From: a virus
Direction: 5' to 3' (one strand)
Length of the DNA: 25,495 nt
IMG/VR virus record: IMGVR_UViG_3300032265_000206
Location: 1 to 25,495 of that record
Part shown: piece after piece, positions 10,000 through 23,411 of the stretch
How positions within the stretch are numbered: the stretch's first letter is position 1
How the letters are laid out: every line of letters begins with the position of its first letter
Made by a program: the position numbers and the translations under genes
Notes under the pieces: model-generated
The model's database searches: none
What the model was told of the DNA's origin: nothing
The model's input: only the letters and a program-made list of their open reading frames with translations

Positions 10000-12900
10000 T
10001 TAGCATGTACCTACTTGAGATGTACCACCATTTCCACTTGTTATATAAACACTAGAAGGTCTTGCACAAATACTTCCAACTGGTCCAGAATTTCCATAGA
10101 ATGAGAAATTATCTGAATAACCTGCACAATTTGTATAAGTACCTGAAACATATTCACCATCATTGTAAGCAATTATTTGATAAGTATAACATGTTGGTGC
10201 AGCAGTAGTAGTTGTTGTTGTAGTTGGTACAGTAGTAGTTGTCGTAGTTGTTGGTGCTACATAACCACATGCCGGATCATTAAAAGCAATCACAGATGTA
10301 TATGATCCACAAGAACCATCAGCAAAAACCCCAATCTTATTATGATTTACAGTATCACAATACTCATATAAATAAGTTCCATATGGTTGACATGTAGTAG
10401 TTGTAGTTGTTGTTGGAGTACATGTTCCACCTGCAATACTATTTATTTGATTAGTAAAATTACTATGACTTGTTCTAGATAAATACCTTAAAGTACCTTC
10501 ACCATTTAAGTAATAGAATCCAGAAGAATAATTGGTATATGCCCAGAAAGGAATTGGATTATAAGTTGAGCAATCTCCATTATTTACATCATATCGTAAG
10601 AAAGTATAAACTGGTGTAGCAGTTGTTGTTGTAGTTGTAGTTGGTTCAACATATCCACAAGCAGGATCATTGTATGCAATTACAGATGTATATTCTCCAC
10701 ATGATCCATTTGCAAATACTCCGATTTTATTATGATTTACAGTATCACAATATTCACGAATGTAAGTACCATAAGGTAAGCAAGTAGTAGTAGTAGTTGT
10801 AGTTGTTGCGCAACTTGAATCAATAATAGTATTAATCTGATTTGTATAATTAGTATGACTTGCACTTGTTAAATACCTTGTAATTCCATCTCCATTAATA
10901 ATCTTAAATCCATTTGCATAAGATGTATAAGACCAGAAAGGAATTGGATTAGATTGTGAACAATCATAACTACTAACATCCCAACGATAATAAGTAAATC
11001 TTGGAGTAGCAGTAGTTGTAGTAGTTGTTGTAGTACTTGTTGTAGTAGTTGTGGTAGTTGGAGCAGTTGTAGTTGTAGTTGTACATTCTCCAATAAATGT
11101 TAAATAAGATGCACCTGTACCACTTAATGTTTCATATTGCGCACAAATGGTTGCACCATTACCAATACTAACATTAGTAAATATAACACCATCACATCTT
11201 GTATAACTAACTGTTCTTGGACTACCTGATTGATTTTGATAATTCTCACATGGGAATGTAGGTCTTGCAGTTGTTGTTGTTGTTGTAGTACAATATGATG
11301 CAAAGAAAATCATTGTATGATCAGTATATGCTGAACAATTATTACCATTATAAACTCGAACTGTATAACTTTTAGATGCAGTTTGATTTATATAACCTGT
11401 ATTATAGTAAGCTGATCCACTTGTAATATATCCAGATGGACTACTACATCCATCATTTGTACATGTAAATGTATCACCTTCACAAACTTTATATCTATCT
11501 CCATTAACTACACTTGAAAGTATTAAAACACCTGCTTGATTTGTATCACAATTAGGTGTAGTACTTCCTAAATTAAATGTAGGATTAGGTATAGCAGTAG
11601 TTGTACTTGTAGTTGTACTGGTAGTTGTAGTACTTGTAGTTGTAGTACCACTTAAATTTATTGTTCTAAAATCAGACATTAATTCAAGACTTGTTTCACC
11701 AGTAGTTAATTCTGTTGAATATGAATTAATAATATATCTCTTATCCCTAATTACTATTTTATCATTTAAATTAAGTTTTGATAATAGAAAAATAGGTAAA
11801 ATTGCTTTTAATTTCATTAATCTTGACTTTTGATTAAATGTATTTGAAATATATGCTGAATAATAATTATTAAATAATCCATTAGTTTCTACTTTATCAG
11901 TATAGCTTGATTGTTCTGCTCCCCAATTTATAGTATTAATAACAGATGATACTAAAGTATCTTGACCAAATAAATTATAAGTTGTATTACTTGATATAGT
12001 AGTTTCTTCAGAAAATTTAAATACTTGACTTGAAGATAATGTTTGAATAGTTCCATAATCATAAAGTATTACTGGTTTGGGAATGTATGCAGTATAATCT
12101 GCTCTTATTGAATATCCAATTTGTAAATTAGTATTAGTGAATTTAGTAAACGGCATATTTTCAAAAGGTAATTCAATTGAATATTGTTCACCATCATTAT
12201 CAACATCATATTTTAAATCTCCATAAGGAATATCTGATCTAGAAAGAAAAGCAGTTGCCAATAAATTTTCACAATCTTCATGTTTGAAATTAATTGTTTT
12301 ATATGGTTTTACTCTTTCTAAATCTATGTCATCTGATTGACAATATTTTGATATATCATAAGTTTGTCCTTCTGAATACCAATCTTCAAGTTGTTGAATT
12401 TTATATGTGATTCCATCAGATGAAAAGCATGTAAGATTAAACATCTTTAATATTCCACTAAAGAAATCTTCTGCTTTAATCTCTGGCATATATTCAGAAA
12501 CATTCAAAGTTATAACTGGACTTTGTGATGTGCTTTGATTTGCTAAAACATCTGCAACTACTGAACTTCCATTATTAATTTCAAAATGATAAACAGATGT
12601 ATAAATAATTGATTCAGTTGATGACATATTAAAAGAATATTTGCCTGAATCAACTAAAGGAATATTTAATGTTAATGGTGATGCTGAAGGTGTAGTATAA
12701 TTTGATTGTGTACTTATCTTAACACCATTTTTAAATACTGAAAAAGTAAATGGTCTACCAAATATATTATCTGGATCTGTAAAAGTTAATACGATATAAG
12801 AACTACTTACATAATTAGGTGATGTTGGTTGTGTAAAATTTAATGAATCAGTAGTTAAATCAAATAAACTTTCTGTTCCTACTGTACTTGATTTAGATTG

Positions 12901-13653
12901 GAAATCTATTTTATCACTTTCATTTTTCAATTCAAATTTATCTGTATTCTTCAACCAAAGAAAAGCAGATGTAAATTTAGGATCTGATAAAAATGAACCA
13001 GTAAATGTTATTCCTAATTGAGTTGCAATAGATTGTAATATTTTACTTACTCTCATTGCAGGAAATAATTCGTTATAATAAATTGGTGTAATAGATTTAC
13101 TTATATCCCAATTTGTTGCATTTGTCCCATTAGTATTATATTGCCATATGTTTTTAGATGATATTAAAGGAAATTTTACATCATTACTTACGGATCCTGT
13201 AACTCTTGCTTTAACAACTGAACCTGAATAAACAAAATTATAAATTGAATAATCAAAATCTCTTAAAAATCTATTTGAAAATTTATCTTTTAAAGATATT
13301 AATGATCCAAAGAAAGTTAATGAATAATTATCAATAGCACCTTTTTTATAACTGGCTTTTTCTAATTGTATCTTTCCTTTTCTAAATGTTAATGTATCTA
13401 ATTCGATATAAGCATCTTTTCTTTTAGTAGCATTAAATCCACTATCTAAAGAATTTTCATACCAATGTTTAAATATTGCATTATTATTTTTTGTTGCAGG
13501 AATAGTAAATGATTGTGTAAAATCAGTAAAGACTTTAGAGATATCATTTATATTTTGAATACTACTGGTGATTGAAATATTTTCATCCTGAAATAATTCA
13601 AGTCTTTTAGCCAATCCATCATCACCATAAACAAAAACTGAAACATTTATCAT
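10000..13653 (-). CDS. Tail-tip protein with poly-Thr-linked C-terminal modules
   Basis: The protein has 1217 residues. Residues 1 to ~669 are a tail-tip/baseplate body starting MINVSVFVYGDDGLAKRLELF, with ITSSIQNINDISKVFTDFTQSFTIPATK, a pattern found in Bacteroidetes siphophage tail proteins. KAEDFFSGILKMFNLTC suggests a hub-like domain. From T670 on the protein is a string of ~50-100-residue modules, most with two or more Cys, separated by runs of mostly 6-8 Thr (some with Ser, Ala or Pro). Linkers lie near 670-687, 788-795, 858-880, 946-953, 1002-1009, 1076-1083 and 1132-1149. A 63-residue module (PIPFW.YT.Y..GF) and a 48-residue module (YCDTVNHNKIGVFA.GSCG.YTSVIA.NDPACGYV) each occur twice. 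Thr codons mix ACT, ACA and ACC, so the runs are kept at protein level. The modules probably form extended receptor-binding or glycan-binding arms; the linkers look like O-glycosylation sites. The start overlaps the upstream stop (ATGA). Confidence 0.82.
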   Translation of the reverse strand: MINVSVFVYGDDGLAKRLELFQDENISITSSIQNINDISKVFTDFTQSFTIPATKNNNAIFKHWYENSLDSGFNATKRKDAYIELDTLTFRKGKIQLEKASYKKGAIDNYSLTFFGSLISLKDKFSNRFLRDFDYSIYNFVYSGSVVKARVTGSVSNDVKFPLISSKNIWQYNTNGTNATNWDISKSITPIYYNELFPAMRVSKILQSIATQLGITFTGSFLSDPKFTSAFLWLKNTDKFELKNESDKIDFQSKSSTVGTESLFDLTTDSLNFTQPTSPNYVSSSYIVLTFTDPDNIFGRPFTFSVFKNGVKISTQSNYTTPSASPLTLNIPLVDSGKYSFNMSSTESIIYTSVYHFEINNGSSVVADVLANQSTSQSPVITLNVSEYMPEIKAEDFFSGILKMFNLTCFSSDGITYKIQQLEDWYSEGQTYDISKYCQSDDIDLERVKPYKTINFKHEDCENLLATAFLSRSDIPYGDLKYDVDNDGEQYSIELPFENMPFTKFTNTNLQIGYSIRADYTAYIPKPVILYDYGTIQTLSSSQVFKFSEETTISSNTTYNLFGQDTLVSSVINTINWGAEQSSYTDKVETNGLFNNYYSAYISNTFNQKSRLMKLKAILPIFLLSKLNLNDKIVIRDKRYIINSYSTELTTGETSLELMSDFRTINLSGTTTTSTTTTSTTTSTTTAIPNPTFNLGSTTPNCDTNQAGVLILSSVVNGDRYKVCEGDTFTCTNDGCSSPSGYITSGSAYYNTGYINQTASKSYTVRVYNGNNCSAYTDHTMIFFASYCTTTTTTTARPTFPCENYQNQSGSPRTVSYTRCDGVIFTNVSIGNGATICAQYETLSGTGASYLTFIGECTTTTTTAPTTTTTTTSTTTTTTTTATPRFTYYRWDVSSYDCSQSNPIPFWSYTSYANGFKIINGDGITRYLTSASHTNYTNQINTIIDSSCATTTTTTTTCLPYGTYIREYCDTVNHNKIGVFANGSCGEYTSVIAYNDPACGYVEPTTTTTTTATPVYTFLRYDVNNGDCSTYNPIPFWAYTNYSSGFYYLNGEGTLRYLSRTSHSNFTNQINSIAGGTCTPTTTTTTTCQPYGTYLYEYCDTVNHNKIGVFADGSCGSYTSVIAFNDPACGYVAPTTTTTTTVPTTTTTTTAAPTCYTYQIIAYNDGEYVSGTYTNCAGYSDNFSFYGNSGPVGSICARPSSVYITSGNGGTSQVGTC
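10259..11038 (-). repeat. Two tandem ~390-bp units in the tail-tip gene
   Basis: Sequence beginning acataaccacat at 10259 recurs as acatatccacaa at 10649, 390 bp (130 codons) on, and similarity continues through a 48-residue module, a Thr run, a 63-residue module and a second Thr run. Copies are clearly diverged at DNA level but aligned along the unit, indicating an older duplication of a two-module cassette. Confidence 0.85.
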
Positions 13654-21689: not shown

Positions 21690-22435
21690 ATCTCATTAGG
21701 TTTAATAGTTCCATCTTGATTAATATAGCAATCAAAATTTACTAATGAGTTTATAAATTTAATGTACCCTTGTGTTTTGCAATATAGTTTACGTTCTTCA
21801 ATATCTTTAATACCTGAATACTTTTCCCAAAGTTCAAATCTTTCTTCTTTTGATATAGTTTGTATTTTGAACTGTTCTAAATAATCAAATAGAATTGATA
21901 AGCCTCCAGCAATAAACGTAAACTTCTTATCGTTCTTCTCGCAGTATCTAATCTGATTAGCATATTCGTTAGCCGTGTCAATTGCCTGCTTCTTTAATTC
22001 TTGATCACTTGGCTTTTCTTTCACTTGTTCGATTGGTTTAGGTAAGTTTTTGATTTCTTGTCTTGCAAATTCTAAATAAGCATTCATTATTCTACCAAAG
22101 TATTCACAAGAAAAGTTTTCATAGCATTTAGCATCTACTTGTAATTTACCAGCAACTGCCATTTCAAATGCAATCTTAATTTCTTCTGGAGTTTGATTAC
22201 CAAAATTAGATCTAACAAAATTAGTTAGTACAAATTTTTCTTCTTCAGTCGGTAGATTGTTTCCTCGTAAGCCAACCAAAAGCATCGAATAACGTAATAC
22301 CTCCTTTATGTCTTCTTCATTCCTTACACGCAAACTATTGGTACTCTGTGCCTGTTGTATTGCTATTGCATTACCACTTCCTAAGTGCTTCCATTCTTGC
22401 GGCACTTGTTCCGAGTTTCTCAGTATTATTTCCAT
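21686..22435 (-). CDS. Replication-linked protein of Bacteroidetes phage type
   Basis: The protein has 249 residues. EEDIKEVLRYSMLLVGLRGNNLPTEEEKFVLTNFVRSNFGNQTPEEIKIAFEMAVAGKLQVDAKCYENFSCEYFGRIMNAY is helical and recalls proteins placed after DUF4373 genes in Bacteroidetes phages. The position suggests a helicase loader or primosome accessory role, with no Walker motif seen. The start lies 65 bp inside the preceding gene; the chosen ATG at 22435 gives MEIILRNSEQVPQEWKHLG.... A later start at M51 is possible. Confidence 0.6.
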   Translation of the reverse strand: MEIILRNSEQVPQEWKHLGSGNAIAIQQAQSTNSLRVRNEEDIKEVLRYSMLLVGLRGNNLPTEEEKFVLTNFVRSNFGNQTPEEIKIAFEMAVAGKLQVDAKCYENFSCEYFGRIMNAYLEFARQEIKNLPKPIEQVKEKPSDQELKKQAIDTANEYANQIRYCEKNDKKFTFIAGGLSILFDYLEQFKIQTISKEERFELWEKYSGIKDIEERKLYCKTQGYIKFINSLVNFDCYINQDGTIKPNEI

Positions 22436-23027
22436 TATTGTTAAATTTGGTTTTATTATTAATCCAAGTACTTATTCTTCTTTCAATATTAAAGAATTTT
22501 TCTAACTCCCATCTTTCCTTTCCAGATTTATTTTGCTCTGTCCAATAAGATAAAAAATTATCGTATTCATCACCTAATAGAAAAATGTGTGGAGTTAATA
22601 TATCACTTAACTTTACTTTACTTTCTTTTACTTTACTTAACTTTACTTTATCAGCGTTACGAACAGGTTCTGAACGTGTTACATTTTCGCTAACTGATTG
22701 ATTTTCACGCCATTCAGAAATACGTTTTGCGTTTTTTTCTTTAGAAACTTGATACTTTTTACTAAAGTTTAGCAATTGTTTGTTAAAAGTTTCACCATTA
22801 TTTGTAGAAATCAAATCAATTTCTTCAATAAAAGTCCAACATTTCTCCAATTTTTTACCAACATTTAGTTGATGTTTAAGAACTTTTGTCTTAATTGGCT
22901 TCTCTTGTAGTGCAAGTTTTTCCAATATTGTGTAGAATAATCCCAGTCCCTCATATCCATATTCAAGATATAGTTCGGTAATTTTTTCATCATTAAATGA
23001 ATTGGAATCGTGTAAGTAGTATTTCAT
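22371..23027 (-). CDS. Replication initiation protein, DUF4373/Lin1244-like
   Basis: The protein has 218 residues. The N-terminal domain (MKYYLHDSNSFNDEKITELY ... GYEGLGLFYTILEKLALQEKPIKTKVLKHQLNVG) is the DUF4373 winged-helix type found in phage replication proteins. A low-complexity linker KVKLSKVKESKVKLS (near 128-142) follows, then a helical part with NFLSYWTEQ-like DnaD features, ending TSAARMEALRKW. It would recognise the origin and help load the replisome. It sits 14 bp downstream of the terminator-like leader RNA, so expression may depend on read-through. Confidence 0.75.
   Translation of the reverse strand: MKYYLHDSNSFNDEKITELYLEYGYEGLGLFYTILEKLALQEKPIKTKVLKHQLNVGKKLEKCWTFIEEIDLISTNNGETFNKQLLNFSKKYQVSKEKNAKRISEWRENQSVSENVTRSEPVRNADKVKLSKVKESKVKLSDILTPHIFLLGDEYDNFLSYWTEQNKSGKERWELEKFFNIERRISTWINNKTKFNNNGNNTEKLGTSAARMEALRKW
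22605..22650. repeat. 16-bp direct repeats in replication gene, possible origin iterons
   Basis: ACTTAACTTTACTTTA occurs at 22605-22620 and 22635-22650, exactly 30 bp apart, with further CTTTACTT-like copies between. They encode the KVKLS/KVKES linker. Origins in initiator genes are common in phages. Confidence 0.6.
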
Positions 23028-23035
23028 TTTAAAAT

Positions 23036-23073
23036 AAAAAAAGCCAGTCTGCGTAGGAGTGCAAATCTGGCTT
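23036..23073 (-). terminator. Terminator hairpin inside the leader RNA
   Basis: On the minus strand AAGCCAG / CTGGCTT (7 bp plus inner TGC/GCA) is followed by TTTTT (seven T including the stem end). It lies ahead of the replication gene ATG at 23027, so it would block or meter its transcription. Confidence 0.75.
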
Positions 23074-23126
23074 TGGTTATTTAACCTATTAAATTACCTA
23101 AGAACTCCTACCCTCTTAGTTAATTG
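23036..23126 (-). ncRNA. Candidate kissing-loop leader RNA before replication gene
   Basis: Reading the minus strand from the expected start near 23126, hairpin 1 is CTAAGA-GGGTAGGAGT-TCTTAG (23119-23098). Hairpin 2 is GGTT-AAAT-AACC (23086-23075). Hairpin 3 is AAGCCAG-ATT-TGC-ACTCCTAC-GCA-GA-CTGGCTT (23073-23041), followed by T-rich sequence. The 8-nt loop of hairpin 3 is fully complementary to 8 nt of the 10-nt loop of hairpin 1 (GTAGGAGT / ACTCCTAC), so the loops can kiss. The unit has its own promoter and ends in a terminator 14 nt before the replication gene. It could be an attenuator, a riboswitch-like switch or a free ~90-nt RNA. I do not recognise it as a known family. Confidence 0.6.
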
Positions 23127-23130
23127 TTCT

Positions 23131-23162
23131 CAAATATAACTATTTTAAACCGATTTGCACAA
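23131..23162 (-). promoter_or_regulatory. Bacteroidetes-type promoter
   Basis: On the minus strand TTG (23162-23160), a 21-nt spacer, then TATATTTG (23138-23131), a perfect TAnnTTTG -7 element. The -33 part lies in the end of the upstream gene. The transcript would start near 23126 and enter the kissing-loop leader. Confidence 0.75.
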
Positions 23163-23411
23163 TCTTTTAGTAAAATATCCACTATAAATTGGATGATCTA
23201 ATTCAAACATTCTTGCATAATCAGATGTGTAGTTGTTATTCAATTTGTACTGGTCATTTCCAGATATCATTGTTTGCCATCTAATGACTTCAAATATCTG
23301 TTTTGATCCTAATCTTACATAACCTCTGTTGATTAGTTGAAATGCCAGTCTTTTAAATTCCGAGTAAACCTGTGGATTATCGAGATGATATTGTTTGAAA
23401 CTTGTTCTCAT
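23145..23411 (-). CDS. Conserved-type phage protein, unknown
   Basis: The protein has 88 residues. YHLDNPQVYSEFKRLAFQLINRGYVRLGSKQIFEVIRWQTMISGNDQYKLNNNYTSDYARMF is a pattern shared by small proteins in many phages, found close to replication genes. Basic and helical, possibly DNA-binding. Its 3' end carries the -33 element of the next promoter, so gene and promoter overlap. Confidence 0.65.
   Translation of the reverse strand: MRTSFKQYHLDNPQVYSEFKRLAFQLINRGYVRLGSKQIFEVIRWQTMISGNDQYKLNNNYTSDYARMFELDHPIYSGYFTKRLCKSV

Follow-up and report, generated by a model that had tools for sequence, protein, structure and literature searches.

A kissing-loop RNA leader with a predicted terminator at the head of replication operons in viruses of Bacteroidota

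A leader of ~90 nt is found, at the level of sequence, directly 5' of the DNA-replication genes in many viruses of Bacteroidota. Comparison of homologous loci establishes its hairpins, a complementarity between two of its loops that is kept by compensatory change, its place at the operon and a near-fixed spacing of the complementary strands. The leader is probably an RNA element that controls viral replication and has so far gone unrecognised, and we favour, with slightly better than even confidence, its action as a structured, cis-acting transcription attenuator of the phage replication operon. The first-pass annotation had described a self-contained leader in front of a replication gene and had offered three readings for it, an attenuator, a ligand-sensing switch and a small RNA acting in trans. 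That interpretation holds in part: the self-contained leader upstream of the replication gene stands and the attenuator is the best supported of the three readings, while the ligand switch is not retained.

The window analysed here, that is, the whole 25.5-kb viral record (25,495 nucleotides), carries its main genes on the minus strand, among them a terminase, an ERF recombinase and a Lin1244/DUF4373-type initiator-like gene, and all leader coordinates refer to this strand. The window also encodes a protein of 1217 aa in which long tracts of threonine separate repeats that contain cysteine (10000-13653, minus strand). Direct reading of the minus strand gives, in order, a TTG, 21 nt, TATATTTG, three hairpins, a T run and an ATG; this reading and the fold confirm the promoter followed by three hairpins that had been annotated, the promoter as a consensus match only. 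TAnnTTTG at -7 with TTTG near -33 is the primary-sigma promoter consensus of Bacteroidota (PMC7366714), and the window matches it exactly in the -7 box TATATTTG (23131..23138), while the -33-like element, 21 nt further 5', is TTG only (23160..23162). Hairpin H1 (23092..23125), backed by the fold and by pairing in homologues, consists of the P1 stem (23125-23114 / 23103-23092; 12 positions with one A.G mismatch) and a loop (23113-23104) that displays the first kissing strand, GUAGGAGU, with the variable core AGG (23104..23111). The fold places the small hairpin H2 at 23075..23086 (GGUU 23086-23083 / AACC 23078-23075), and a GGU...ACC hairpin is, by eye, usual at this place in homologues. H3 and its T run (23036..23074; stem 23074-23061 / 23052-23040), identified by direct reading and folding, form a GC-containing hairpin followed by a U run and are predicted to be an intrinsic terminator, likewise a consensus match only; the loop of H3 is the second kissing strand, ACUCCUAC (23053..23060). 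The two 8-nt loops are perfect reverse complements, just as had been claimed for the terminator loop and that of the first hairpin.

Folding of 23127-23036 yields exactly H1, H2 and H3 with both 8-nt loops unpaired (MFE -27.4 kcal/mol, z -4.1, 0/200 shuffles as good, MFE identical to the centroid). When the input is lengthened to take in promoter bases, H1 folds differently, so that the fold depends on the transcript start. The T run extends to 23036 and the ATG lies at 23027-23025, 8 nt past the T run and ~13 nt past the stem; the T run is thus shortly 5' of the replication gene, as annotated, and the distance of 14 nt given for it is to be corrected accordingly. The ATG opens the first gene of the operon (22371..23027, minus strand), whose 218-aa product is replication-initiator-like, with a Lin1244/DUF4373 N-terminal domain (PF14297, E 4.6e-5, 24.5 vs 25 bits, just below the curated cut-off; PHROG 2562, replication initiation, E 1.9e-4). 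Upstream, an 88-aa gene of unknown function (phrog_13625; 23145..23411, minus strand) ends within the promoter region. Type I and type II leaders alike are preceded by a similar end of a reading frame, suggesting that leaders are exchanged at one place.

Viral contigs scanned for the exact loop pair yielded a family of leaders with varied stems. Since such a scan selects for the loops themselves, loci were fetched with four initiator proteins instead; the loci analysed thus go back to two kinds of query, the loop pair and the four initiators, in collections biased to environmental contigs, and the host range covered is that of Flavobacteriia-type phages. When H1 and the terminator were picked upstream of initiator genes by stem strength alone, loop complementarity of at least 7 nt appeared in 153 of 166 loci, against ~36 with shuffled partners, the 13 remaining loci being mostly cases in which the wrong H1 was picked. 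With only GU...AG and CU...AC as anchors and the three central loop bases left free, complementarity was kept in 135/135 distinct leaders (row L323 of 136 was left out as an indexing artefact). Eight variants occur in this set (AGG, GAG, CGG, GGU, CGC, CAG, GGA and CGU), and a ninth, UGC, was seen in the gene-tree analysis, giving nine GUNNNAG/CUNNNAC pairs in total. All nine are within the 30 most stable of the 64 possible, with a mean of -9.3 kcal/mol vs a median of -7.1 kcal/mol (P about 0.004).

In 81 unique rows, the seven kissing pairs are held in 567/567 cells, all of them Watson-Crick, and three of the seven vary, with 3, 2 and 4 pair types; the invariance of the outer pairs GU..AG / CU..AC is partly due to their having served as the search anchor. 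Sliding by 1-3 nt lowers pairing to 33-55%. The P1 stem is paired in 897/972 cells, vs 556 after shuffling, and compensatory as well as G-U pairs are numerous in it. No G-U is found in the 567 kissing cells, although G-U is frequent in P1. Outside paired positions there is little conservation, the invariant positions being mostly the kissing strands and the T run, and the hairpin followed by a T run recurs in homologous leaders. Thus, in the covariation check proposed with the annotation, homologous leaders were found to keep loop complementarity and to covary in P1, rather than keeping neither. On four initiator-gene trees the loop variant changed at least 12+13+18+13 times, at least 56 in all, part of which may reflect exchange of leaders between phages and not point changes. 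A control scan of 2.65 Mb of viral DNA gave 254 distinct terminator-like hairpins; those with a kissing partner of at least 7 nt were nearly all replication leaders, with ~7 AT-rich chance pairs. Together with the compensatory changes, this bears out the claim that the pairing exceeds chance.

The leader is more general than this single window, as it is spread over several initiator types. It adjoins the first ORF of operons with initiators of at least five types, comprising two DUF4373 groups, a group that we take to be DUF6291, replisome-organizer/DnaD-like proteins and an HTH replication protein. The initiator is the first or second gene of the leader-headed operon, followed in some by a DnaB helicase or a primase, and where a small ORF is inserted the leader remains at the operon head. 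Loop 3 is separated from the ATG by 19-30 nt in 128/129 leaders. A strict TAnnTTTG occurs at a near-fixed place in 86/129, vs 2.4% of random 33-nt windows, and TTG stands 17-23 nt 5' of the -7 box in 67 of the 104 homologous leaders with such a box. The type I span, from the first to the last kissing base, is 55-63 nt. Records matching the covariance model R1 contain one copy each, apart from weak mirror hits on the opposite strand at the same place; the model served only for these copy counts, and it missed H3 because MAFFT misaligned that hairpin between subgroups. The 59.3-kb contig IMGVR_UViG_3300027969_000114 (L138, L258) presents two leaders and two initiator types, and is twice as long as two ~29.6-kb contigs of another sample (L139, L257); its two leaders and doubled size could mean that assembly fused two phages. 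L012, L013, L031, L032, L036 and L037 carry GTAGGAGT in tandem around CTCCACCTAC; these repeats are conserved from contig to contig and are unrelated to the leader.

Some 51 initiator loci are devoid of a type I leader. Many of those inspected have, in the stretch from the -7 box to the ATG, a different scaffold built to the same plan, and some show none. L355 and L359, whose IMG/VR names suggest genome projects, are DUF6291-like loci with no kissing leader upstream, possibly in prophages. The common plan is an early segment complementary to the terminator loop, with a strand-to-strand span of 52-64 nt throughout, and a stem directly 5' of a U run recurs in these scaffolds too. Type II scaffolds have reversed polarity, CU..AC first and GU..AG second (CUCACUAC/GUAGUGAG, CUCUCGAC/GUCGAGAG, CUUCUCAC/GUGAGAAG and CUCCUUAC/GUAAGGAG). 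Further scaffolds use AUGGUAC/GUACCAU, GUCGCAU/AUGCGAC with GUCGUAU/AUACGAC, AACACAC/GUGUGUU and GUUGCAG/CUGCAAC. The candidates AAATGCCT, ACCGCTAAA and AAACGCGTT were rejected as kissing pairs, being terminator stems or chance matches; at those loci the true pairs are CUCACUAC/GUAGUGAG, CUCUCACAA/UUGUGAGAG and AUGGUAC/GUACCAU.

The same plan, in other sequences, lies 5' of replication genes in four lineages of cultured Flavobacterium and Cellulophaga phages: elemoA/elemoB, 11b, the mumin group (tooticki, stinky, hemulen, hattifnatt and lillamy, with identical leaders) and Cellulophaga phi19:3/phi13:2. In the latter pair the 5' partner is a tail segment with no clear hairpin loop, and phi19:3 shows its kissing strands in reversed orientation, like type II. 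The plan was not seen in three leaders of cultured-phage DUF4373 relatives, those of EF62phi, a Porphyromonas phage and Flavobacterium phage 1/32, and blastn of the leader region against cultured phages gave no match. Among 84,980 genomes of bacteria and archaea, the exact type I pattern in its AGG variant was hit only twice, once in a cyanobacterium and once in an acidimicrobial MAG, and both hits are taken as chance.

For the favoured attenuator, RNA polymerase would start a few nt before H1 from the leader's own putative promoter, and because transcription would begin just before H1, this hairpin would form first and expose its loop. H2 and then the terminator H3 would fold, and the H3 loop would pair with the H1 loop of the same molecule through 7-8 Watson-Crick pairs; the transcript would thereby be tied into a compact knot with the U run at its end. 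Part of the transcripts would stop at H3 as a ~90-nt RNA, and the rest would read through into the initiator gene, whose ATG follows the hairpin after ~13 nt. The loop-loop pairing, in stabilising the folded terminator, would set the split between stop and read-through in favour of termination, and something during infection would presumably shift this split; no trigger relieving termination emerged from the comparative evidence. The fixed place at the operon, the predicted terminator and the limited freedom of the span point to control in cis over transcription entering the replication genes, the near-constant span in particular being consistent with an intramolecular contact. In each scaffold the loop sits on a folded hairpin inside the terminator or as the terminator, so the pairing more probably maintains the terminated fold than blocks it: that H3 stays folded while kissing fits boosting of termination better than blocking, the direction itself not being readable from sequence. 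The geometry would be tight, since by a rough estimate ~33 stacked pairs would have to be spanned by about 13-20 nt within which H2 must also fit, and a contact in cis may therefore need a bend or an open H2.

RNAs also recognise each other in trans through the loops of folded hairpins, and a trans-acting role is the main, though an unlikely, alternative to cis attenuation. The terminated RNA would accumulate and pair through its loops with those of further leaders, whether nascent or complete; in this way the number of phage copies, or a second infecting phage that shares the loop code, would shut down or turn on the replication operon by a logic like that of P4 CI RNA or of plasmid antisense control; leader dimers may also form. 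Such a role is favoured by the leader's own predicted promoter and terminator, by the display of the loops on hairpins, and by a plan that fits the description of P4 CI RNA (PMC4825925). The 7-mer and its complement occur in the window only within the leader, so the only phage target seen is another leader copy, and the same loop variants stand 5' of different initiators, hence shared codes would exist. On the other side, the near-constant span (52-64 nt) is not needed for pairing in trans, the leader stays tight to its operon, and loop pairs are replaced at about the same rate as stem pairs, so that diversifying selection on the loops is not supported. Besides, tooticki6-1 is described as a lytic phage (PMC7077304), which removes lysogenic immunity as the reason there. 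A bolder proposal, which we hold to be quite unlikely, is that the matching 7-8 nt code of the 5' hairpin or segment and the terminator loop provides replication control independent of scaffold across Bacteroidota phages, as an RNA compatibility tag acting in trans between phages with a common code; if true, such a tag would set replication timing and the competition of co-infecting phages without an antisense gene.

That the leader instead serves translation or mRNA stability, the knot shielding the 5' end, the U run being no real terminator and a U/A-rich unstructured start region being left for the ribosome, appears decidedly doubtful. H1 does start within a few nt of the expected transcript start, and the distance from H3 to the ATG is short and nearly constant; however, other scaffolds, too, have a U run immediately after a stem, and a plain protective hairpin needs no covarying loop-loop contact with near-fixed spacing. 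It is highly improbable that GTNNNAG and its inverted copy act in the DNA as two half-sites bound by an initiator or repressor and lie in loops by chance: they are perfect inverted repeats with G-U in 0/567 cells, and iterons and operators are common near initiator genes, but both sites fall in stem loops, P1 covaries as RNA with G-U pairs, the orientation is reversed in type II scaffolds and phi19:3, and the window contains no further copies. A ligand-binding riboswitch can hardly be entertained: a leader with a pseudoknot-like contact and a terminator would suit it, but Rfam gives no match, little is conserved outside the pairs and no pairing-independent ligand-binding core is seen, many unrelated scaffolds replace one another at equivalent places while the plan stays, and the downstream genes serve replication, not metabolism or transport.

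In the open-licence papers searched, replication control in Bacteroidota phages is little described. With the leader, an RNA element heading the replication operon becomes open to experiment in several initiator types and four cultured phage lineages, and its naturally varying loop pairs already amount to compensatory mutants. The leader further suggests that a loop-loop helix can anchor a terminator to the 5' end of the transcript it belongs to, and Rfam gave no match for this arrangement. When Rfam 15 was searched with the whole window at the gathering threshold, no family matched; at a loose E-value the best hits of the leader element were irrelevant, and 14 loci, most with other scaffolds, returned only a tRNA. 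These results are in agreement with the earlier remark that the architecture was not a recognised one, and a search of open-licence papers found no description of this kissing-loop leader.

Among known systems, lysine and purine riboswitches use intramolecular kissing loops to shape a ligand pocket of conserved bases. The present leader shares with them a loop-loop contact within one leader, but it shows no conserved pocket, and the loop engaged as partner belongs to the terminator. In ColE1 RNA I/RNA II and CopA/CopT, ~7-nt loops on folded hairpins kiss as they would here; those loops belong to RNAs of opposite strands, whereas both are here on one strand and in one transcript. Attenuation of pT181 repC and pIP501 repR relies on a terminator in the leader immediately 5' of the initiator gene (PMC5703833), a position shared by the predicted terminator here. 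Those systems require an opposite-strand antisense RNA, while an antisense -7 box of the TAnnTTTG type, the only type considered, was not enriched on the other strand in the 180 nt downstream (19/129, 14.7%, vs 12.6% background). In satellite phage P4, CI RNA pairs with seqA and seqC in its own transcript and stops expression of the replication genes (PMC4825925). The P4 system differs in using a processed small RNA with seqA/seqC, where the present leader has two hairpin loops, one of them the terminator's own, and at least one phage with the present plan is described as lytic. Both have an untranslated leader with internal complementarity 5' of replication genes, and premature termination before those genes, the outcome in P4, is predicted here. 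The precedent named in the annotation was P1 C4 RNA; by its published description (PMC4825925) P4 CI RNA would be the closer match in logic.
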